From the IMG/VR virus record IMGVR_UViG_3300035158_000865, positions 1 to 52,778 of that record: a stretch of 52,778 bases of DNA. The stretch is one strand, 5' to 3'. Below are positions 1,467 to 52,218 of the stretch, piece by piece. The notes beneath the pieces were generated by a model. That model was not told the origin of the DNA. It saw only the letters and a list, made by a program, of their open reading frames with translations, and did not search any database. Each line of letters starts with the position of its first letter. Position 1 is the first letter of the stretch. The translations under genes and the position numbers were made by a program. Source of the DNA: a virus.

Positions 1467-4400
1467 TTAGAATCCTATTATTACTACTCTTCCTGATACT
1501 TCATCCGTACCAAAATCAATATATACTTGATCATTACTATTAGCTTTTACTTGATCAGGAACAATTACTTCTGCATCTGCTCCTGTACCATTCCAACATT
1601 GTACTATAATATCATAAGTTGATAAATTATGATCAACCGTCCACGAAGTTGCTGCTGCTGTTACAGTTTCACTATGTGTAATTGTGGTTGCGTTAGCATC
1701 AACATAAGTTTTAACTGCTTGTTCTGTTGGTACTGCATTATCAGAATCACCTGCTAGTGTTCCGTCCGTAGAGAACTCACTAACTCTTGTACCAGCTGTA
1801 AATGAAAGACCACTTGCATTCCAAGTAGCTATATCAGAACCATCTGCTGATACTGTTATTGTTCCTGTACCTGTATCATCTACAAATACTCCAGAGTCAC
1901 CTTCATAGATACTATTTACAGAAAGTCCGGCCAATTCATTATCAACATAAGCTTTTACTGCTTGTTCTGTTGGAACAGCGTCATCAGAATCGCCTGCTAG
2001 TGTATCATCTGTAGAGAACTCATTTATTGATGTACCATTTGTTAGAATTAATGTACTTAGTGATAGTGCTGTACTCTTATCTGTCAACTCAGTTTCAGTA
2101 AAATACCTATTATCTAATTGACCATTATCAAGTTCTGTTTCTGTATAATATCTATCATCATGATTATGAACTGAGTCTGCATAAGCTGTATGAGTATGTC
2201 CTGGATCACTTCCACTTGTTACATTAGCTCCTTCAACTGTTGTTGCTGACATGGTTCCGACTACATTTACACCACTATTTGTTGTATTAAGTTTTTTAGA
2301 ACCATTATAATATATCTCTACTTGCTGATTAGCAACAAATCCTATTGCTGTCTTAGAGTTACCTCTCAAATAGAAAGCCTCTCCATCAGCACTGTCAATA
2401 TAATTATGGGTACCATCATGATAAAGGATAAGATCGGAATCTGAACCTAACCGTACTTCGTTATTATCATCCCAAGTAGTATTGGCAGATACAGAATCAT
2501 CCAAATCTGACCTTAAAAAACTAGTTGAATCTAAATTATCAAGTTTATCAGAATCAGCTGCTTTATCTCCAATTCCAAGATAAGTAGAATCATGGTTATG
2601 TAATGATGTTTCACCACCATCAGTCAAATTATTATATTCTGTTTGTGTCAAATGGTAATAATTTGATGAATTAAGATCAGATAAATTAGTATGGTTAACA
2701 GTAGAACCAAGTTTTACCCAATTAGAACCATTATACGTATATTGTATATCTTCATCTTCAACCCAAGTTGCCATACCTTCACTTGCTGAAGTTTCTACCC
2801 ATGTGGTTCCATCCCATTCATAGATGTTATTTTCTGTCCAACCACCAGCTGTAGAGGTTGCTATATATCTATTTCCTGTTACTTCTGATGCTGAACCTTC
2901 ATCAGTTCTATCTAACACACTATCTTGCCAATCAAGACCTTGTACTAAACCATCAACATAGGATTTTGTGGTCAAATGTCCATCAGAAGTTGGTGAAATA
3001 CCTGCTATTGTACCTGTAAATGCTCTTGTACCATCAACACGAATATATTGTGTATGATCATCATTTCCAAGGTTAGAAATTGAACTATGGTCAATTCCAC
3101 TATCTTTTACTGTTACAGCTCCACCACTTACTTCAAAGTCGCTTGTATCAAATGATGCTATACCCTTTGTGGTTGTTGTTGCATCAATATAGATACCACT
3201 ATCTAGTTGGTTAGCTGCTACTCTTTCATAGCTTGTACCATCAGGCATATCATCCAAGTTAACTTGTCCTGCACCTGAACCCCAATCAATATGACTATCT
3301 TTTACAGTGTCATTAGCATCCTGAATTGCTCCAACTTCTGAATAAGTTAAAGCATCTGCATAAGTCTTAACTGCCTTTTCTGTTGGTACTGCATTATCAG
3401 AATCATCTGCTAATGTTCCATCTGTTGAGAACTCATTAATATTTGTTCCAGAAGACATTGTAAGACCATTGGCATTCCATGTTCCAACAATATTTCCGTC
3501 TGCCGATACTGTTATTGTTCCTGTTCCAGAATCATCCACAAATACTCCAGAGTCAACTTCATAGATACTATTTACAGATAGACCAGCTAATTCATTATCT
3601 ACATAAGCCTTTACTGCTTGTTCTGTTGGTACTACTGAATCAGAATCACCTGCTAATGTATCATCTGTTGAAAATTCATCTATTGTAACACCATTGACTA
3701 ATCCTACTGCACTTAGTGCTAAGGTCAAAGAATTATTTGTTAATTCGGTCTCAGTAAAGTACATATCATCATGTGTATGTGTTGAAACTTCACCTGTAAG
3801 ACCAAGATTAGTTCTTGCGGTTGCTGCATCATCCAAGTCACTAAGATTATTAGCTTTTTGAAGATACCTATTATCACTTTCAGTCTCAGTAAAGTACATT
3901 CCATTGTGGCTATGTAGTGATGTATCACCACCACCAGTAAGTCCTGTATGTTGTGAGCTTGTTAAGTGATAATATTCGGTAGGAGTACCACCTTGGATAC
4001 CACTCAAGTTATTATGTGTAGAAGTAGAACCGAACGATACCCAACTTACATTGTTATATGTATATTGTACATCTTCATCTTCTACCCAACAAGCCATACC
4101 TTCACTTTTTATTGTAAAATTCCATGATGAACCGTCATATTCTGCTATATCATTTTCATGGCCAGCCCAATCACCTGTAGGACTTGAACCAATGATATAT
4201 CTATCACCAGCAGTTGCTCCTCCTGAAGGCGGAGAAGTAAGGTCTTTATCTAATACACTATCTTGCCAATCAAGACCTTGGACCTTACCATCAACATATT
4301 CTTTTACTGCTTGTTCTGTAGGTAAGGCATCATTAGAATTATCTCCTAAAGTTGTATCAGTAGAAAACTCATTAACCCAAGTACCATTGGCTAGTCTCAT

Positions 4401-27460: not shown

Positions 27461-28009
27461 TTATCTACTCATAGTAAAACTGCTAATTACTTCATCACAT
27501 ACACCAATTTCTATTGCTTCCTCAGGAGAAAGATACTTATCACGATCTATCATTTCTTTAACCTGTTCTTCAGTAAGGTTACTTTTCTCAGATATTTCTT
27601 TAACCATTATTTCCTGACGCCTTCTGGTTTCAATAACATCAATTTCAACATCTATAACCGTACCCCTATAGCCTCCACTGATTTGATGGTACATCAACCT
27701 GGAGTTTTTAGTCATAAATCTTCTTCCTTTATCACCACAAGTAAAAATAAAAGCACCCGCTGACATTGCTTTACCTATACAAATAGTCCTAATGGGGCAT
27801 TGTATTATGTCCATCAAATCGGTTATAGCAAACATAGAATCAACATGGCCACCATAACTATCTATTATAATTGTTATTTCTCTTAGAGGATCTTCTTCCT
27901 GTAATTTTACTAATCTCTTATTAGTTGTTAAGCATGAACATTCATCTATCTTACCACTCAGAAATATTGATCTGCTAATTTCTTCACTGGAGTTATTATT
28001 ACTTGTCAT
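27461..28009 (-). CDS. ClpP-like serine protease
   Basis: 182 aa, close to ClpP length (about 195). It has SIFLSGKID at residues 14-22, IDSYGGHVD near 50-57, the nucleophile motif KAMSAGAFIF (Ser83) and MYHQIS (His108), with an Asp in the C-terminal third. It may work as a processing protease or with a host unfoldase. ClpP-type enzymes also serve as prohead proteases in some phages, but this gene lies in the replication region. Its ATG lacks a close Shine-Dalgarno: the nearest good site (AAAGGAGGAA) is over 50 bases upstream across a stable structure. Confidence 0.85.
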   Translation of the reverse strand: MTSNNNSSEEISRSIFLSGKIDECSCLTTNKRLVKLQEEDPLREITIIIDSYGGHVDSMFAITDLMDIIQCPIRTICIGKAMSAGAFIFTCGDKGRRFMTKNSRLMYHQISGGYRGTVIDVEIDVIETRRRQEIMVKEISEKSNLTEEQVKEMIDRDKYLSPEEAIEIGVCDEVISSFTMSR

Positions 28010-28014
28010 AAAAT

Positions 28015-28170
28015 TTAGGCGCAGGAAACCACGGCGGCTTGCCCCGTGGAGGAATGCGCCTTCCTCCTTTCAATTAAAGTTGTTGTTCTTGCTTTCAGTC
28101 TAATGCAATCTTTTTTTACATTGACTGACGGATTAATTACTCTTCCATCTATGTCTGATATTGCAAGGAT
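28015..28170 (-). mobile_element. relic of an IS200/IS605-type tnpB 3' end and right end
   Basis: A frame open without a start codon runs from the polB stop to TAA at 28015. Its last residues (ARTTTLIERRKAHSSTGQA) have the style of a TnpB C-terminus. The GC-rich tail (28018-28067) on the minus strand forms GGAGGAA/TTCCTCC around a GGCGCA loop that pairs with TGCGCC downstream, with an inner ACGG/CCGT hairpin. The GCGCATTCCTCC...GTTTCCTGCGCC layout is that of IS605-group right ends, which also form the 3' scaffold of omega RNA. No full tnpB is present. Confidence 0.5.
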
Positions 28171-28172
28171 TC

Positions 28173-29051
28173 CTATCCAAAAAATAATTTCAATGATACA
28201 TTTGAATCTCCATGTACTATATGTTCTTTACCCATAGGAGATAATAAAAATTTTATCTTTTTCACAAAAAATTTTTCTATCATAGTGTTATAATCAACTT
28301 GTAGTTCTTTATCAAATTCTTTTGGCCACCTAAGGAATGTAACAGTATCCATATTGAACTTATTTTTTCTCAAGTAAACCACTTTAGTTTTCACTCCATC
28401 ATAAATGTTTTCATATTCATTTTGTATATTTAATTCTTTGAGTAAAAATCTATAATTAGCAACTCCTTTTACATGCCATGGTGTACCTTTGATAGCTTTT
28501 CCATCCTTTATGTACTTATCTATATTTCTAACTCCTATACTAGCGGCAATTTCTTCTGGATAAACCTTCTTTAATTCCTTTTTATATTGTATGATCTTAT
28601 TTGTTATTTCTTCTTCTGATGCTTTCTTTAGTATCATTTGCATAACACTTTTTAGTCTTGTTCTTATAGCTTCAGAAGAATCAGACCTAACAACATCTAA
28701 ACCTGTAACATTGAGCTTGTCAACATCTGCACCTTCTTCATTAATACACCAATACGCATACTTCTTCTTTTTTATAAACAAAGAGGATTTTGCAACAATT
28801 TCCTGTTTAAAATTTATACGGAAATCTGTTATAGCAGAGTTATAATCTTTCCTCTGAGTGTTTCTATAAACTCTATCATTTACAAAGTCTTCTATTATCT
28901 TTGATAGTTTAATGATGATATTAATCTTCCTATCATCACCAAGACTATTCCACCAGTCTTCATCTATACCTTGATTAAATAAGAACTCTTCTATTGATAT
29001 AAAAAGAGAGTCTGTATCTATGTATTTTATATAATCAACTTCTTTCCTCAT
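28173..29051 (-). CDS. 43: DNA polymerase B, C-terminal fragment (palm motif C, thumb)
   Basis: 292 aa. It starts with polymerase motif C (YIDTDS, residues 10-15), which holds the catalytic Asp pair with motif A on the other fragment. A KKKYAYWC motif and thumb-like sequence follow. It ends SLKLFFG, resembling the C-terminal sliding-clamp-binding peptide of T4 gp43. The ATG overlaps the stop of the N-terminal fragment (ATGA), which ensures coupled translation. The two parts must assemble to give an active enzyme. The split falls between motifs B and C. Confidence 0.9.
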   Translation of the reverse strand: MRKEVDYIKYIDTDSLFISIEEFLFNQGIDEDWWNSLGDDRKINIIIKLSKIIEDFVNDRVYRNTQRKDYNSAITDFRINFKQEIVAKSSLFIKKKKYAYWCINEEGADVDKLNVTGLDVVRSDSSEAIRTRLKSVMQMILKKASEEEITNKIIQYKKELKKVYPEEIAASIGVRNIDKYIKDGKAIKGTPWHVKGVANYRFLLKELNIQNEYENIYDGVKTKVVYLRKNKFNMDTVTFLRWPKEFDKELQVDYNTMIEKFFVKKIKFLLSPMGKEHIVHGDSNVSLKLFFG

Positions 29052-30811
29052 ATCTTTTTATCCTTCAAAACTTCTATAAAATCCTTTAAAGGTTTATAAT
29101 TATCCGGCTTGTTTAATAACTCATTTGTATATTTTTCACCAGCTCTAATAGTATGTCTACCACATGATGTAATACCTTCTGCAATATTAGTATTGAAGTA
29201 TCTTGAATATGGTACTGCAAGAATACCAAACATAGCATTAAGAAGGATTTTTAAAGCCCATTGTAGATCAAATAATTGTACTGTCTTTTCTTTAGCATTC
29301 TCTAACTCTTCCCCTCTCAGGTCTTTTAGGGATTTTTTAGTTTTTATCATTTTATTTTTTACTTCTTTCCTTTTCTGAAAGATATTTCTTTGTATAGTTG
29401 ATAATATACCAGGATTCTTATTAGAAAACACAGAACCACAAGGAGATACACATAATAACCTTTTGGATAATGCTTGATTAAACTTGTCAAGTCTCTTACC
29501 TGTAAACTTTACAAGTCCAGTATCTTTTAACATATCAAATTTTTGGAAATTCCTACTTCTAGTAAAAGCTATTATTTTCTCCTCAGTAAAACCTAGTATT
29601 CTACCAAAGTACGTTTCTGGAGACATGTTTAGTGTTATAATAGCTGTGGGATATGATGAAGTTATATCAAGGTCAACAACCCAAGAATGCATACCTTTAT
29701 GCGGTTCTTTTACATATGCCGCTTCAAATGTTTCTTGTGTACCTCCTGAAAAGTGTGGAGCAACAAAATCATTTCTCCTATAATAAGTTAAAAGTGCCCC
29801 TTCTATTAGCTGTGTCATTGTATGGTAATATTTCATAGGAGCTTTAGTTAACAACGATAATGCTTGAACAAGTGATATAAAACCTAATTTTTCTTCAAGT
29901 TGATATACCCTTAAAGAATCAATTACATTGTAATCAACATACTTATTCCAGTCTTTTTCATAAAGATCATTGAGATTTTTATATTCTGAATAATCTAACT
30001 TACCTTTTTCCAACTCATGTTTTGCCACATAGTCAAGGCTATATGATTCAAGATTTGATGTTGAGTACCACTTATACAAATCCATGTAATCTAATATCAC
30101 AGTACCAGCAATATCAATGTTAATTTCATCATTTTTATAGGAATTCCAAACTCTAACAACATTTATAGGAGACATCTTTTTATATAAATCAGTATCCTTA
30201 CCAAACAAAACTTTACACCGTTCTATAAGGTAGGGTAAGTCAAATCCACTAATATTCCATCCTGATATAACATCACAAGGATGCTTATGTAAGAATCCGA
30301 AAAATCTAGTAAGTAGCTGTGTTTCAGATTTACAATGGACAAATAGTACATCTTTTCTATTACCACTATATTCTTTATCTCCAAATGTTATAGATTTTTT
30401 TCGTTTGTTATCATATATACTTATTAGAACTATGGGATACTCAGCACTTTTTATGGAGGGAAAACCATCACCATGGTAAATTTCAATATCAATGTTATAT
30501 ATTCTTAACTTTGGTACTTCTAACTCCTCATCAGGTATCTTATTATATCTCTCAGCTAAAAATTGTATTTCCGGTCTGACTCTATTTTCTAAAATAGAAT
30601 TGTTGTCCTTACAATAAGAATAATAATCAAAATAGGAAGAGAAAGTCTTTTTATCAGCACTTTCTCCATATATGGTTTTATACTTACCTTCTGAAGATCG
30701 TAAGAATACATAAGGTACCCATGGTATTTCAGTATATAAATTCTCACCATTTACTGTTTCCCATAAGTGTATAGTGCTTCTTTTAGTATTATAAAAAACG
30801 TTTCTGAACAT
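29048..30811 (-). CDS. 43: DNA polymerase B, N-terminal fragment (exonuclease, palm motifs A and B)
   Basis: 587 aa. 3'-5' exonuclease motifs: YNIDIEIY (Asp108, Glu110), NISGFDLPYL and YNVIDSLRV. Polymerase motif A is DLDITSSYPTAI, motif B is LKILLNAMFGILAVPYS (the usual N-x-x-Y-G is N-A-M-F-G). It stops before motif C. Joined to the next gene the total is about 880 aa, the length of T4 gp43 (898). It starts at the stop of the nuclease gene (TAATG). No intein or homing endonuclease lies between the fragments. Confidence 0.9.
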   Translation of the reverse strand: MFRNVFYNTKRSTIHLWETVNGENLYTEIPWVPYVFLRSSEGKYKTIYGESADKKTFSSYFDYYSYCKDNNSILENRVRPEIQFLAERYNKIPDEELEVPKLRIYNIDIEIYHGDGFPSIKSAEYPIVLISIYDNKRKKSITFGDKEYSGNRKDVLFVHCKSETQLLTRFFGFLHKHPCDVISGWNISGFDLPYLIERCKVLFGKDTDLYKKMSPINVVRVWNSYKNDEINIDIAGTVILDYMDLYKWYSTSNLESYSLDYVAKHELEKGKLDYSEYKNLNDLYEKDWNKYVDYNVIDSLRVYQLEEKLGFISLVQALSLLTKAPMKYYHTMTQLIEGALLTYYRRNDFVAPHFSGGTQETFEAAYVKEPHKGMHSWVVDLDITSSYPTAIITLNMSPETYFGRILGFTEEKIIAFTRSRNFQKFDMLKDTGLVKFTGKRLDKFNQALSKRLLCVSPCGSVFSNKNPGILSTIQRNIFQKRKEVKNKMIKTKKSLKDLRGEELENAKEKTVQLFDLQWALKILLNAMFGILAVPYSRYFNTNIAEGITSCGRHTIRAGEKYTNELLNKPDNYKPLKDFIEVLKDKKI

Positions 30812-31338
30812 TATGCCACCCTAAAAATAACATTGTGATTTTGCCACAATGTTGCAATTAACATACTTTCATCCTCACTCTTTGATGCATTTACTATTCT
30901 CTTTTCCTTAGATGTATCCAAGAAAAAATAAATGGTAAAATCATAACTATTAGAATATACAAGAGATTGTCCTAAACCTTCTCTAATTGAGCTTCCTCTA
31001 TCACCTTTCTTAACTTCTATTGCTACATTGAAATCTTTAAAATTCACTACCATATCCGGTCTATGGAAAGCACCGAGGAATAAAGTATTAGAAACGGTTG
31101 TATTCTTGTTACCTTCCCATAGAAGATTCTTTTTAGCTTTGTTTCTGGAATTCTTCTTTGAAACATTATAATGGTTTTCTAATATTTCAGTAACCTTTGA
31201 TAGTAGAGGATGATACATGGCTGTCTTTATATTATCCTCTGATTTGTTGGAATTTAGAATTGATACATCTTCCTCTAGAATGTTAACCAGTTGTTGTAAA
31301 ATAGTCATTCTACGGTTACTCTTATTCACCCTCCCCAT
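30811..31338 (-). CDS. PD-(D/E)XK nuclease-like protein
   Basis: 175 aa. The core AFHRPDMVVNFKDFNVAIEVKK gives Asp95 and Glu108-x-Lys110, the catalytic pattern of restriction-endonuclease-like folds, followed by a helix with Gln (GLGQSLVYS). Length and layout resemble Holliday-junction or restriction-like nucleases. The gene overlaps the polymerase start, so it is probably co-translated and used in replication or repair. Confidence 0.65.
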   Translation of the reverse strand: MGRVNKSNRRMTILQQLVNILEEDVSILNSNKSEDNIKTAMYHPLLSKVTEILENHYNVSKKNSRNKAKKNLLWEGNKNTTVSNTLFLGAFHRPDMVVNFKDFNVAIEVKKGDRGSSIREGLGQSLVYSNSYDFTIYFFLDTSKEKRIVNASKSEDESMLIATLWQNHNVIFRVA

Positions 31339-49053: not shown

Positions 49054-49128
49054 TGGAACCCCCGCCGGGATTCGAACCCGGATACCTCAGCTTAGAAGGC
49101 TGATGCTAGTCCATTTAGCTACGAGGGC
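49054..49128 (-). tRNA. tRNA-Arg(UCU)
   Basis: 75 bases with encoded CCA. The cloverleaf pairs well, including a GCTA/TAGC D-stem and TTCGAAT T-loop. The anticodon TCT reads AGA, the major Arg codon of AT-rich phage genes. Confidence 0.95.
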
Positions 49129-49132
49129 TTTA

Positions 49133-49211
49133 TGGAACCCCTGACAGGATTCGAACCTGCATACTCACCGGTTCGTAGCCGGTGGCTCTGATTCCATTGA
49201 GCTACAGGGGT
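49133..49211 (-). tRNA. tRNA-Arg(ACG)
   Basis: 79 bases with encoded CCA. Canonical arms. The anticodon ACG (inosine-type) reads CGN codons. Only four bases separate it from the preceding tRNA-Arg. Confidence 0.9.
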
Positions 49212-49225
49212 ATAATTTATTTTTA

Positions 49226-49300
49226 TGGAGCGGGAGGCAGGAATTGAACACTGCACCGTATAGTTGGAAACTATACATTCTACCTTTAAAATACTCCCGC
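49226..49300 (-). tRNA. tRNA-Gly(UCC), copy with bulged T-stem
   Basis: 75 bases with CCA, anticodon TCC. The T-stem GCAGTG/CCTGC needs a bulged T to pair, and the D-stem (TTTT/GAAT) is weak. It may be decaying: a better tRNA-Gly(UCC) lies at 52144-52218. Confidence 0.7.
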
Positions 49301-49304
49301 TAAA

Positions 49305-49379
49305 TGGAGCGGGTGGTGGGAATCGGACCCACAACGACCACGTTGGCAACGTGGCATTCTACCTTTGAATTACACCCGC
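49305..49379 (-). tRNA. tRNA-Gly(GCC)
   Basis: 75 bases with CCA, anticodon GCC. The arms pair well. The T-loop reads TCCGATT, with C at the usual pseudouridine-55 position. Confidence 0.85.
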
Positions 49380-49381
49380 TA

Positions 49382-49744
49382 TTATATCACTAGTTTATTT
49401 ATCTCATCATCAGACCATGTAAACATAAAATCATTGTTTTGATTTTCTATATCGTATATTACAAGTTTCAGAAAATACATTGGGCCATTAGACCATATTT
49501 CACATTGTTCTTGTTCTCTGGCTACTCTTCCATCTTTTAGTTGATATTCGTATAGTGGAAAGCCACCTTCATCAATTATTGTATCAATGAAATCAAATTC
49601 ATTTCTATACAATTCTTCAAATTGCTCTAAATTTATAATTCCATCAGGAAAAGTTTTTCTTTTTTCAACTTTAACTTTCTTTGTATTCTTTTTTAGAAAT
49701 TCTAGAGCTTCCTGTGGTAAGCCCATATACTGGTTCATTCTCAT
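49382..49744 (-). CDS. small protein within the tRNA array
   Basis: 120 aa. Acidic, mixed alpha/beta, with a Lys-rich KKNTKKVKVEKRK stretch near the start and an end MFTWSDDEINKL. An AAGGAC site precedes the first ATG. The stop is two bases from the 5' end of tRNA-Gly(GCC). Not recognised. Confidence 0.6.
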   Translation of the reverse strand: MRMNQYMGLPQEALEFLKKNTKKVKVEKRKTFPDGIINLEQFEELYRNEFDFIDTIIDEGGFPLYEYQLKDGRVAREQEQCEIWSNGPMYFLKLVIYDIENQNNDFMFTWSDDEINKLVI

Positions 49745-49767
49745 ATTCTGTCCTTTCTCTTACAGTC

Positions 49768-50085
49768 TTATAGTCTTATATTTTTCTTCAAAATCAAATC
49801 TTTATCTGATAGTCTATTCAAGATTATAAATGGAAAGAAAATGAATGTAAACATTTTTCTTCTATCTTTTTTCACTCTATTTTTAAAGAATCTGTATTCT
49901 TTTAGTGAAAACATTTCTGAGGCTTCTAAGGTTCCTACTTCTACTCTTCTGTAGTAAAACAAAGGACTCTCTTTATATTCATCGAAAACGAGATGAACCA
50001 TTGCTTTACCCCATATAGAACGGTAATAAAGAGTTATGAGTTTTAATTGTATCCACTCTTTTATTTTATGTAGTTTATTTTTCAT
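49768..50085 (-). CDS. small basic membrane-associated protein
   Basis: 105 aa, basic with one hydrophobic stretch (FTFIFFPFIILNRL, about 79-92). It starts only ten bases after the 3' end of tRNA-Val and has no Shine-Dalgarno, so translation may be weak or coupled to tRNA processing. Function unknown. Confidence 0.5.
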   Translation of the reverse strand: MKNKLHKIKEWIQLKLITLYYRSIWGKAMVHLVFDEYKESPLFYYRRVEVGTLEASEMFSLKEYRFFKNRVKKDRRKMFTFIFFPFIILNRLSDKDLILKKNIRL

Positions 50086-50094
50086 TATTTTGTT

Positions 50095-50168
50095 TGGTAG
50101 GGGGTAACGGAATCGAACCGATTTCTTCTGCGTGTAAGGCAGATGTTGTACCAGTCAACTAACCCCCT
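50095..50168 (-). tRNA. tRNA-Val(UAC)
   Basis: 74 bases with CCA, anticodon TAC. The cloverleaf is good apart from one T-stem mismatch. Confidence 0.85.
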
Positions 50169-50174
50169 ATTATC

Positions 50175-50248
50175 TGGTCCTCCTGAGTGGAATCGAACCA
50201 CTATCACGGCCTTATAAGGACCACGCTCTACCGTTGAGCTACAGGAGG
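50175..50248 (-). tRNA. tRNA-Ile(UAU)
   Basis: 74 bases with CCA, all arms paired. The anticodon TAT reads AUA directly. Most bacteria instead use a CAU tRNA with lysidine, so this is an uncommon choice that suits an AUA-rich genome. Confidence 0.85.
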
Positions 50249-50253
50249 ATTTT

Positions 50254-50327
50254 TGGCTGGCCGGAGAGGAGTCGAACCTCTATACCATGGTTCAAAGCCA
50301 TGTGCCCTTCCATTGAGCGACCGGCCA
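50254..50327 (-). tRNA. tRNA-Gln(UUG)
   Basis: 74 bases with CCA, canonical arms. The anticodon TTG reads CAA. The next gene upstream stops at the adjoining base. Confidence 0.9.
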
Positions 50328-50744
50328 TTATTCATACTCACAATTATGTCTTAGTTTCCAATTATCTTTAAGTATTTTTCTTTGTTTCTCATTTAGAAAT
50401 TCCATGGCAAATTCGTCAGCTTCTTCTTCATCATGATATCCACATGCATGACCTATTTCATGGTATTTAGCTATTTTCCATTCATCTTCATTTAAATCAC
50501 AATCCACATTCATTACTACCATAGAGTCTTCTAAATTATCATCTTTATCATATAATGTAACTGTGAATGCCCTTTCATCTATATAATTTGTTACACCCAT
50601 TTTCTTAAATTCTTCTTGTACTTCAAAAAACGTTCCTTTATTCAAGTAAAGTAATTTTATTTCTTCTTCCCCCACAATGACTCCTTTCATCTTAACAAAA
50701 TTTTTCAGTATCTTTTTTCGTATTCTCTCTATTCCTTTTATCAT
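50328..50744 (-). CDS. ImmA/IrrE-like metallopeptidase
   Basis: 138 aa. KYHEIGHACGYHDEEEADEF gives the zinc motif HEIGH (95-99) and a downstream Glu108, as in ImmA/IrrE peptidases. These cleave phage or mobile-element repressors and stress regulators. An AGGAG site supports the start. The stop codon ends one base before tRNA-Gln. The target is unknown. Confidence 0.7.
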   Translation of the reverse strand: MIKGIERIRKKILKNFVKMKGVIVGEEEIKLLYLNKGTFFEVQEEFKKMGVTNYIDERAFTVTLYDKDDNLEDSMVVMNVDCDLNEDEWKIAKYHEIGHACGYHDEEEADEFAMEFLNEKQRKILKDNWKLRHNCEYE

Positions 50745-50826
50745 AAAATGCTCCTAGTGTAAACACAAGGAACAATTTTTAATTTGGTATAATTATTTAT
50801 CTTTTAGGAATAGTTTAATTTTATTA

Positions 50827-50912
50827 TGGAGGAGGGTAGACGAATCGAACGCCCAGGTTTCACCCCGCCCACGGGTTCAAACCGTGTTGCCGACCATTCA
50901 GCGGTACCCTCC
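50827..50912 (-). tRNA. tRNA-Ser(UGA)
   Basis: 86 bases with CCA and a long variable arm, as expected for Ser. Anticodon TGA. The discriminator base is T, where bacterial Ser tRNAs usually have G. Confidence 0.85.
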
Positions 50913-50917
50913 TTATT

Positions 50918-50991
50918 TGGTGGAGATGGAGGGAGTCGAACCCTCATTACTGACGTGCAAGGCCAGTGTTCTCCCATTAAACTACATCCCC
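50918..50991 (-). tRNA. tRNA-Ala(UGC)
   Basis: 74 bases with CCA, all arms paired, anticodon TGC. The third acceptor pair is G-U, the usual Ala identity element region. Confidence 0.9.
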
Positions 50992-50999
50992 TTTATTTT

Positions 51000-51075
51000 T
51001 GGGGCGACCGGAGGGAATCGAACCCTCGTTGTATGGGCCACAACCATACTCTCTGACCATTGAGTTACAGTCGCC
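51000..51075 (-). tRNA. tRNA-His(GUG)
   Basis: 76 bases with CCA. The extra 5' G (position -1) opposite C73, the mark of tRNA-His, is present. Anticodon GTG. Confidence 0.9.
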
Positions 51076-51080
51076 ATAAA

Positions 51081-51156
51081 TGGTGGGAGCCGCTGGAATC
51101 GAACCAGCATCTCCTGGGCTTCAACCAGACGCTATGACCACGTAAGCGAGACTCCC
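51081..51156 (-). tRNA. tRNA-Phe(GAA)
   Basis: 76 bases with CCA, anticodon GAA, canonical T-arm. Confidence 0.9.
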
Positions 51157-51164
51157 TTTGTTTA

Positions 51165-51380
51165 TTATAGATAACCTAAATCACGAAGAGTTTGTAAACC
51201 CATTTTTATTTCTTCTTCAGTAGGTTCAAAACCTTCTAATACATTTAAGCCTTCATCAGTTATCTCAAAAGCTTTACCTTCCATTATACCTTTCTCTACA
51301 AACTCATTCAAATCTTTAATGGTATAAAGAAGTATTTTACTTTCTCTAGTTATTTCATTTGTAGTTAAATCATCAAACAT
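51165..51380 (-). CDS. small acidic protein within the tRNA array
   Basis: 71 aa from ATG at 51380, preceded by an AAGGAGAAA site; a longer reading would run back into a tRNA. Contains a SKILLYTIKDLNEFVEKGIM helix and an EPTEEEIKMGLQTLRDLGYL end. No family recognised. Confidence 0.65.
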   Translation of the reverse strand: MFDDLTTNEITRESKILLYTIKDLNEFVEKGIMEGKAFEITDEGLNVLEGFEPTEEEIKMGLQTLRDLGYL

Positions 51381-51395
51381 GTTATTTCTCCTTTT

Positions 51396-51472
51396 TGGTA
51401 GGGGTGGAGGGAGTCGAACCCTCAAACTTGGAATTTTAAGTCCCAATGCTTTTCCAATTAGCATACACCCCT
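51396..51472 (-). tRNA. tRNA-Leu(UAA), class I variable loop
   Basis: 77 bases with CCA, all arms paired, anticodon TAA (reads UUA). The variable loop is only five bases, while bacterial Leu tRNAs have a long arm. It is either an unusual Leu tRNA or one charged with another amino acid. Confidence 0.8.
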
Positions 51473-51598
51473 TTATATAATCATATAAACCTCACCGCAT
51501 TTTTCACATACTACTATGTCAAATTCCTTATTATATGCTTTCTTTATTATATTACCACCACAATAACAAGTACCTGTTATTTCTTTTTCTTTTTTCAT
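51473..51598 (-). CDS. 41-aa zinc-ribbon protein between tRNAs
   Basis: An ORF with a strong AAAGGAG site. It encodes TGTCYCGGN and VVCEKCGEVY, two Cys pairs as in a minimal zinc ribbon. The stop codon directly abuts the 5' end of tRNA-Leu(UAA). Confidence 0.75.
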   Translation of the reverse strand: MKKEKEITGTCYCGGNIIKKAYNKEFDIVVCEKCGEVYMII

Positions 51599-51609
51599 AG
51601 GTTCTCCTT

Positions 51610-51694
51610 TGGTGCTAGAGGAGGGAGTCGAACCCTCATGTCTTTTGACACATAGACCTCAACCATGCGTGTATGCCAGTTCCACCACTCTAGC
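51610..51694 (-). tRNA. tRNA-Leu(GAG)
   Basis: 85 bases with CCA, anticodon GAG, with the normal long variable arm (TGTC/GACA stem). Confidence 0.9.
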
Positions 51695-51791
51695 TCTTAT
51701 CATCTTTGCCTTTTCCTGCTTCAAACAATTTACCTAGTATTATACCTGCTATTATTGAGACTGTAAACCAAAGTAATAAAAAATATCCCAT
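51690..51791 (-). CDS. 33-aa single-pass membrane peptide
   Basis: Starts at 51791 after an AAAGGAG site. It encodes a membrane segment (YFLLLWFTVSIIAGIILGKL) and a charged end (GKGKDDKS). Its TAG stop lies inside the first bases of tRNA-Leu(GAG). Confidence 0.7.
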   Translation of the reverse strand: MGYFLLLWFTVSIIAGIILGKLFEAGKGKDDKS

Positions 51792-51807
51792 AATGTCTCC
51801 TTTCTTT

Positions 51808-51879
51808 TGGTAGTGAGGGAGAGAATTGAACTCTCTTGTACCTGCATATGAGACAGAACACTTGACCACAAGCCTCACT
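51808..51879 (-). tRNA. tRNA-Met(CAU) with a shortened D-arm
   Basis: 72 bases with CCA, anticodon CAT. Only 15 bases lie between acceptor and anticodon stems (normally about 19), leaving a minimal D-arm (CTTG/CAAG). It may be elongator Met or, if lysidine-modified, Ile(AUA). Confidence 0.75.
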
Positions 51880-51889
51880 TCTTTTTGTA

Positions 51890-51964
51890 TGGATGGCGAG
51901 GTGGGGGTCGAACCCACGACAATCTGGTTAACAGCCAGACGCTCTACCACTGAGCTACTCACCA
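51890..51964 (-). tRNA. tRNA-Asn(GUU)
   Basis: 75 bases with CCA, anticodon GTT, canonical arms. Confidence 0.9.
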
Positions 51965-51969
51965 TCAAG

Positions 51970-52047
51970 TGGTAGCGGGGGAGGGAATCGAACCCTCATC
52001 ATTCTGGGATATGAACCCAGCGTGTTGACCTCCTACACTACCCCGCA
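51970..52047 (-). tRNA. initiator-type tRNA-fMet(CAU)
   Basis: 78 bases with CCA, anticodon CAT. It has an unpaired 1:72 position (T-T) and three consecutive G-C pairs at the bottom of the anticodon stem (CTGGG/CCCAG), the two marks of bacterial initiator tRNA. Confidence 0.85.
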
Positions 52048-52053
52048 ACATTT

Positions 52054-52131
52054 TGGTGTGGGTGAGAGGAGTCGAACCTCCAAAACCATGGGTCTAAGCC
52101 ATGTGCATATACCAAATTCTGCTACACCCAC
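52054..52131 (-). tRNA. tRNA-Leu(UAG), class I variable loop
   Basis: 78 bases with CCA, anticodon TAG (reads CUA). The variable loop is five bases instead of a long arm, like the UAA tRNA. The D-loop (AATTTGGTA) is Leu-like. Confidence 0.8.
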
Positions 52132-52143
52132 AAATATTTTTTC

Positions 52144-52218
52144 TGGAGCGGGTGGAGGGAATCGAACCCTCATAACCAGGTTGGAAGCCTGACACACTTG
52201 CCATTATGTTACACCCGC
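52144..52218 (-). tRNA. tRNA-Gly(UCC), well-formed copy
   Basis: 75 bases with CCA, anticodon TCC, good T-stem GAGGG/CCCTC. Complements the bulged copy at 49226-49300. Confidence 0.9.

Follow-up and report, generated by a model that had tools for sequence, protein, structure and literature searches.

The window, as we call the whole stretch of DNA analysed here, is the 52,778-base virus record IMGVR_UViG_3300035158_000865, which may be a fragment. On its minus strand, a split T4-type DNA polymerase is followed by a gap of 163 nt and then by clpP (Table 1). The polymerase (28173-30811) is made of two ORFs (30811..29048 and 29051..28173) that overlap by 4 bases (29048-29051), and its larger part shares 31-32% identity with Pelagibacter and cyanobacterial phages among the best 20 of 2590 records. 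Upstream of it on the same strand, 30811-31338 gives weak nuclease-like matches only, and two DruA-like proteins lie close together in the phage at 31599-32714 and 33214-34494 (PADLOC DruA, E = 5e-17 and 5.9e-15). In addition, 16 tRNA genes are clustered at 49057-52218, also on the minus strand. When the clpP locus was compared by DNA with phages, the best match covered 14% of the query. E. coli genomes gave no match. Viral contigs yielded no relatives of the C-terminal part of the polymerase and, for clpP, one distant contig without this neighbourhood. With no near relative emerging from these searches, an empty site for clpP itself was not found.

Table 1. Features between the polymerase and clpP (window coordinates).
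Feature	Position	Strand	Basis
C-terminal part of the split T4-type DNA polymerase	28173..29051	-	phrog_262, profile positions 569-842, E = 3.4e-47
Truncated IscB-element end (almost certain)	28010..28172	-	fills the polymerase-clpP gap; DNA identity to the L023 and L053 iscB ends
Remnant of the iscB C-terminus, 51 codons then TAA	28015..28170	-	IscB HMMs, L023 identity, start codons
AGGAGG, Shine-Dalgarno (SD)-like, 5' of the hairpin	28063..28068	-	sequence
Hairpin: outer stem GGCGCA/TGCGCC, internal loop TTCCT/TTTCC, inner stem CCACGG/CCGTGG	28017..28061	-	fold and covariation
ATGA, target-side flank of the element and clpP start codon	28006..28009	-	flank position in copies
clpP, 182 aa	27461..28009	-	PF00574, E = 5.7e-46, residues 12-176

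An IscB-element end in the gap

The gap is almost certainly the truncated end of an IscB element of the IS200/IS605 superfamily. An earlier note on this DNA had described an open tnpB-like tail here. An open frame does run through the gap for 51 codons (ILAISDIDG...AVVSCA, followed by TAA), with no ATG or TTG and a single GTG five codons from its end, but the tail is that of iscB. A hidden Markov model (HMM) of three IscB sequences matches it at E = 3.2e-13, and one built from 16 IscB ORFs at E = 6.7e-8. Of the relatives found, the one that comes nearest is the terminal part of an intact IscB in viral contig L023, with 77% identity over 48 residues; the IscB end in L053 shares 71% over 49 residues. 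Both belong with L117 to the IscB proteins that score 336-350 bits on NF040563 (NCBIfam; cut-off 175). At the DNA level the gap is 80% identical to the iscB end of L023 and 74% to that of L053 (147 nt, from about 28164 downwards), and the short stretch from there up to the polymerase stop codon probably belongs to the element end as well. Among the ORFs of the fetched loci, all six non-self BLAST matches of the tail are IscB ORFs. A tblastn search of plasmids found four weak records (best E = 0.02), two annotated as iscB, one as an RRXRR protein and one as hypothetical. The 55-aa piece encoded in the gap has a family match in neither Pfam nor PHROGs, and a search for the TnpB TNB domain (PF07282), positive in 6 of 14 control genomes, gave no match in the window.

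The other part of the earlier description, an IS605-type end beside clpP without a transposase and with a GC-rich structured terminus, is borne out. The window contains a single copy of the end motif GCATTCCTCC-N-GGTTTCCTGC, on the minus strand at 28057..28021, and none of 100 shuffles contained one. GC content is 67% in 28015-28060 against 32% window-wide, and the hairpin has pair probabilities near 1 in the fold model. The Y1 transposase (PF01797) has no match in the window, the same search being positive in 5 of 14 control genomes. The element end does lie at 28015-28170, as proposed, and its true extent is slightly wider, 28172..28010. Compared with IscB (OMEGA) elements, the window shares the iscB C-terminus, the end motif, the hairpin and the ATGA flank, but differs in that only ~163 nt are left: the RuvC/HNH part of IscB was not found, a transposase match is absent, and no HEARO RNA (RF02033) is present in the window at gathering score. 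The HEARO omega RNA was presumably lost with the truncated part of the element. RRXRR likewise had no match in the window, in a weak search that was positive in none of the 14 control genomes. Many elements rely on a transposase from elsewhere.

Which end of the element survives

Copies of the end motif were collected from viral contigs (32 stretches) and from genomes (at least 120, a sample of those existing); 154 matches are listed, window included. ATGA follows the motif at 4-16 nt in 121 of the 154 listed matches, mostly at 8-11 nt, and the sequences diverge beyond it. The window has this conserved target-proximal end with its ATGA flank. An IscB ORF ends within 50 nt of the motif start in 16 of the 153 listed non-window matches, many of whose loci are short upstream. 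A HEARO omega RNA lies upstream of iscB in five of seven relatives scanned, and its 5' part is the guide, according to PMC9640706; the guide therefore belongs to the far end, which is lost here. In 16 of 17 further loci scanned HEARO was not found, so that some of these copies may be solitary ends or TnpB-type. The intact IscB of viral contig L023 (9363-10616) has no HEARO at gathering score either, and is followed by a 61-codon ORF that starts at ATGA.

In the three copies whose TnpB family membership was verified (L009, L013 and L031), tnpB is encoded on the opposite strand and points away from the hairpin end. The TnpB ORF starts beside that end in L013 and L031, and a Y1 transposase reading towards the end lies between it and tnpB in L009. 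These IS200/IS605 TnpB elements have the hairpin end and the ATGA flank in common with the window, whose tail, however, is not TnpB. The surviving end is the target-proximal one in the IscB and TnpB relatives checked. IS200/IS605 transposases recognise subterminal hairpins. The flank ATGA fits the NNRR TAM of OgeuIscB (PMC9640706), though not the G at position 4 preferred by engineered OgeuIscB (PMC13180657), and the OgeuIscB TAM may not be that of this IscB.

The clpP leader

The ATG at 28009 is taken as the clpP start, since from this codon the Clp domain match sets in at residue 12. With the SD rule applied to the 67 predicted ORFs of the window at a spacing of 3-13 nt from the start, 47 have an SD of at least 4 bases, and seven, clpP included, have none of at least 3 bases. 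The AGGAGG is 53 nt from the clpP AUG in line and 8 nt with the hairpin closed; at clpP, an SD beyond working distance is thus combined with a stable hairpin between SD and AUG. The gap as a whole folds at z = -3.8, with none of 200 shuffles equally stable, and the signal is weaker for the 71-nt hairpin by itself (z = -2.3, its stability reached by 3 of 200 shuffles). Covariation is seen among 54 representatives, each standing for one cluster. At the free inner pairs 3, 4 and 5, the two bases can pair in 51, 52 and 47 of them, with four or five pair types each, while randomly dealt partners give mean complementarities of 0.52, 0.50 and 0.37. In the model the SD of the window is unpaired with a probability of 0.24-0.40, varying with the stretch folded. 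An SD-sequestering switch in the window was considered and rejected, the competing pairing having a probability of just 0.004. Some iscB genes end at or just before ATGA, and termination-reinitiation could serve in intact elements. The tail in the window, having no ATG or TTG and only a late GTG, can hardly use it.

Similar ends before other genes

From the 154 listed matches, 33 without ATGA 4-16 nt downstream were dropped, and the removal of duplicates and contig-edge copies left 117 listed copies, window included, 110 of them with 40 nt upstream. In 62 of the 117 listed copies, the ATG that follows the end starts an ORF of at least 100 codons; for 8895 control ATGA from these loci the share is 17.8%. 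An SD, scored as GGAGG, AGGAG or AAGGAG at most 16 nt before the hairpin, directly precedes it in 42 of the 110 listed copies, the window being one of the 42; twelve other 16-nt bins have 0-6%. A long ORF (at least 100 codons) comes next in 31 of the 42 listed copies with SD and in 27 of the 68 without (Fisher p = 7.5e-4). Counted by cluster of listed copies, the fractions are 0.80 in 27 with SD versus 0.39 in 27 without (one-sided p = 4.6e-4), and with looser clusters 0.81 in 19 versus 0.40 in 26 (p = 0.0017). Locus-matched expectations are 0.23 with SD and 0.19 without. The listed copies without SD, 27 of 68 before long ORFs versus 13 expected from their loci, also exceed expectation, and tolerated landing before start codons therefore explains part of the pattern. 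Closing the hairpin brings the SD to 6-11 nt from the AUG in 37 of the 42 listed SD copies. In the fold model, the outer stem has a probability above 0.5 in 37 of these 42, and the SD is unpaired with a median probability of only 0.38. In nine of the 42, the outer helix at its full length would cover 1-4 bases of the SD.

The association was also seen in held-out copies, a small set of 29 drawn partly from the same genomes, with three matches lacking ATGA, already counted copies and contig-edge copies excluded: a long ORF follows 12 of 18 with SD versus 3 of 11 without (one-sided p = 0.046). Pooled with these, the listed copies give 43 of 60 versus 30 of 79. Strict-pattern scans found matches in 10 of 10 genomes that were picked for carrying the pattern, and in 1 of 151, 2 of 148 and 15 of 84 genomes, and a backward-read control gave none. 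A relaxed SD-hairpin pattern gave five matches in four of 194 genomes of one order: three are rho leaders, and the other two lack an ATG in range. Read backwards as a control, the pattern matched once in the 194 genomes. In viral contigs the relaxed pattern found 20 stretches, 4 known and 16 new, and the new ones, none with an ATG in range, were set aside as chance.

Ten SD-type copies were scanned first for the gene that follows. In the products of rho, carB and panB, and in a nitroreductase, an NmrA-like protein, 3-hydroxyacyl-CoA dehydrogenase and diphosphomevalonate decarboxylase, the family match begins at residue 2-9. It begins at residue 11 in a TldD-like protein, and only further in for a methylase (L031) and an enolase-superfamily protein (L050). 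Ten more SD-type copies showed a Pfam match in seven, one of them below cut-off, and none in three. These family matches mark the genes that follow the ends as real. Among five genomes of one bacterial family, three have an SD-hairpin leader before rho and two a plain one. The 1.5 kb before rho contain no IscB ORF in L188 and L190, and such rho leaders resemble the clpP case. The canonical hairpin is the best structure of the rho leader in L190 only; the SD has other pairing partners in L085 and L188. A search for 3-hydroxyacyl-CoA dehydrogenase covered 31 genomes (G005 included), and the end is absent in the 19 other loci fetched. Protein identity in those loci is 75-79%, so an empty site cannot be read at the base level.

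Discussion

Our data suggest the following course of events. An IscB-carrying element of the IS200/IS605 superfamily would have inserted directly 5' of the ATGA that opens the phage clpP. The rest of the element would then have been deleted up to the polymerase stop codon, with the target-proximal end kept, and the surviving end would have become the clpP leader. Ribosomes would bind AGGAGG at 28068..28063, the 45-nt hairpin would fold out, and the AUG would come to lie 8 nt away. From the missing normal SD, the spacing, the predicted fold and the recurrence of the layout before other genes, we consider it somewhat probable that the clpP leader is such a hairpin-bridged ribosome-binding site and that translation starts from it. 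Taken together, an IscB-element relic that also functions as the clpP leader is, on balance, the account we favour, and we infer that selection has kept the scrap.

Alternatively, the remnant may be neutral debris, and clpP may be translated weakly or by way of a leaderless mRNA or the A/T-rich TAAATTTT before its AUG. This plain relic is a real possibility, although a rather doubtful one. The relic differs from L023 at 30 positions, 19 of them third codon positions, so that the truncation looks recent and long selection on the scrap is uncertain. In addition, six other predicted ORFs of the window, besides clpP, also go without an SD, and the canonical hairpin is the best structure of just one rho leader out of three. 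Neutral debris, however, leaves unexplained the excess of SDs at one position and its link to downstream genes.

A transcription terminator or attenuator between the polymerase and clpP is unlikely. Two terminator-like sites occur in 27800-28500, both at this end, versus 0.1 expected, and the one on the minus strand is followed by CCTAAATTTT. That site, however, is an alternative 5-pair stem in the 3' half of the hairpin with an interrupted T run, the second site is on the plus strand, and the hairpin is already explained as a conserved element end. The proposal of the earlier note, that this is the right end of an IS605/TnpB element with the start of clpP as the guide of an omega RNA, left as a relic or domesticated, is very improbable: the GC-rich hairpin, the IS605-type end and the missing transposase match would suit it, but the tail is iscB, the end is the target-proximal one with the guide at the lost end, and an Rfam scan of the gap to E = 10 gave nothing except a chance snoRNA match under the cut-off, so that the guide-RNA reading was rejected and the scrap fits a translation-initiation leader instead.

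The hairpin-bridged site that we favour for clpP has a tested precedent. According to PMC3014915, RNA structure shortens the SD-AUG spacing from 22 to 5 nt in T4 gene 38 and from 27 to 11 nt in T4 gene 25, and initiation drops when mutations weaken the structure. In those split sites, as in the window (53 to 8 nt), a distant SD is brought close by RNA structure; unlike them, the hairpin in the window is a transposon end, and the split site is a prediction from sequence and folding. Our searches of the literature, which covered titles and the starts of abstracts, found no description of a transposon end that supplies a ribosome-binding site; one paper reportedly concerns a small RNA from IS200 tnpA. 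TldR and other domesticated TnpB-type systems are likewise relics of the same superfamily in phage, but the scrap in the window has neither protein nor omega RNA and is the wrong end of the element.

More generally, in many IscB and TnpB elements the target-proximal end may have evolved into a portable, hairpin-bridged ribosome-binding site, with ATGA doubling as the start codon, and such ends may persist as gene leaders after the element decays, as at clpP. We put this forward tentatively, as a proposition that could well hold but toward which we stay slightly sceptical. If true, elements can land before essential genes such as rho and carB without silencing them, and insertion at the start of a gene costs little for elements of the superfamily that holds the Cas9 and Cas12 ancestors, IscB being that of Cas9. 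The terminal hairpin of the element would then also serve translation, and a simple route would lead from a transposon end to a gene leader. It would also be a warning that the hairpin end of an IS200/IS605-type element is not always a guide RNA.

Two minor observations concern similar ends elsewhere. On the minus strand of viral contig L020, a lone SD-hairpin end lies at about 3907-4051, in a short gap between two ORFs of ~500 aa that have no PHROGs match, and the hairpin is not the preferred fold there. The SD itself also varies among similar ends. It reads AGGAG in 11 (L163, L178, L261, L265, L267, L269, L271, L272, L275, L279 and L281), with a long ORF after seven, and AGGAA in four (L264, L268, L270 and L280), with a long ORF after one. 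AGGAA may perhaps reflect decay of the SD where no gene depends on it.
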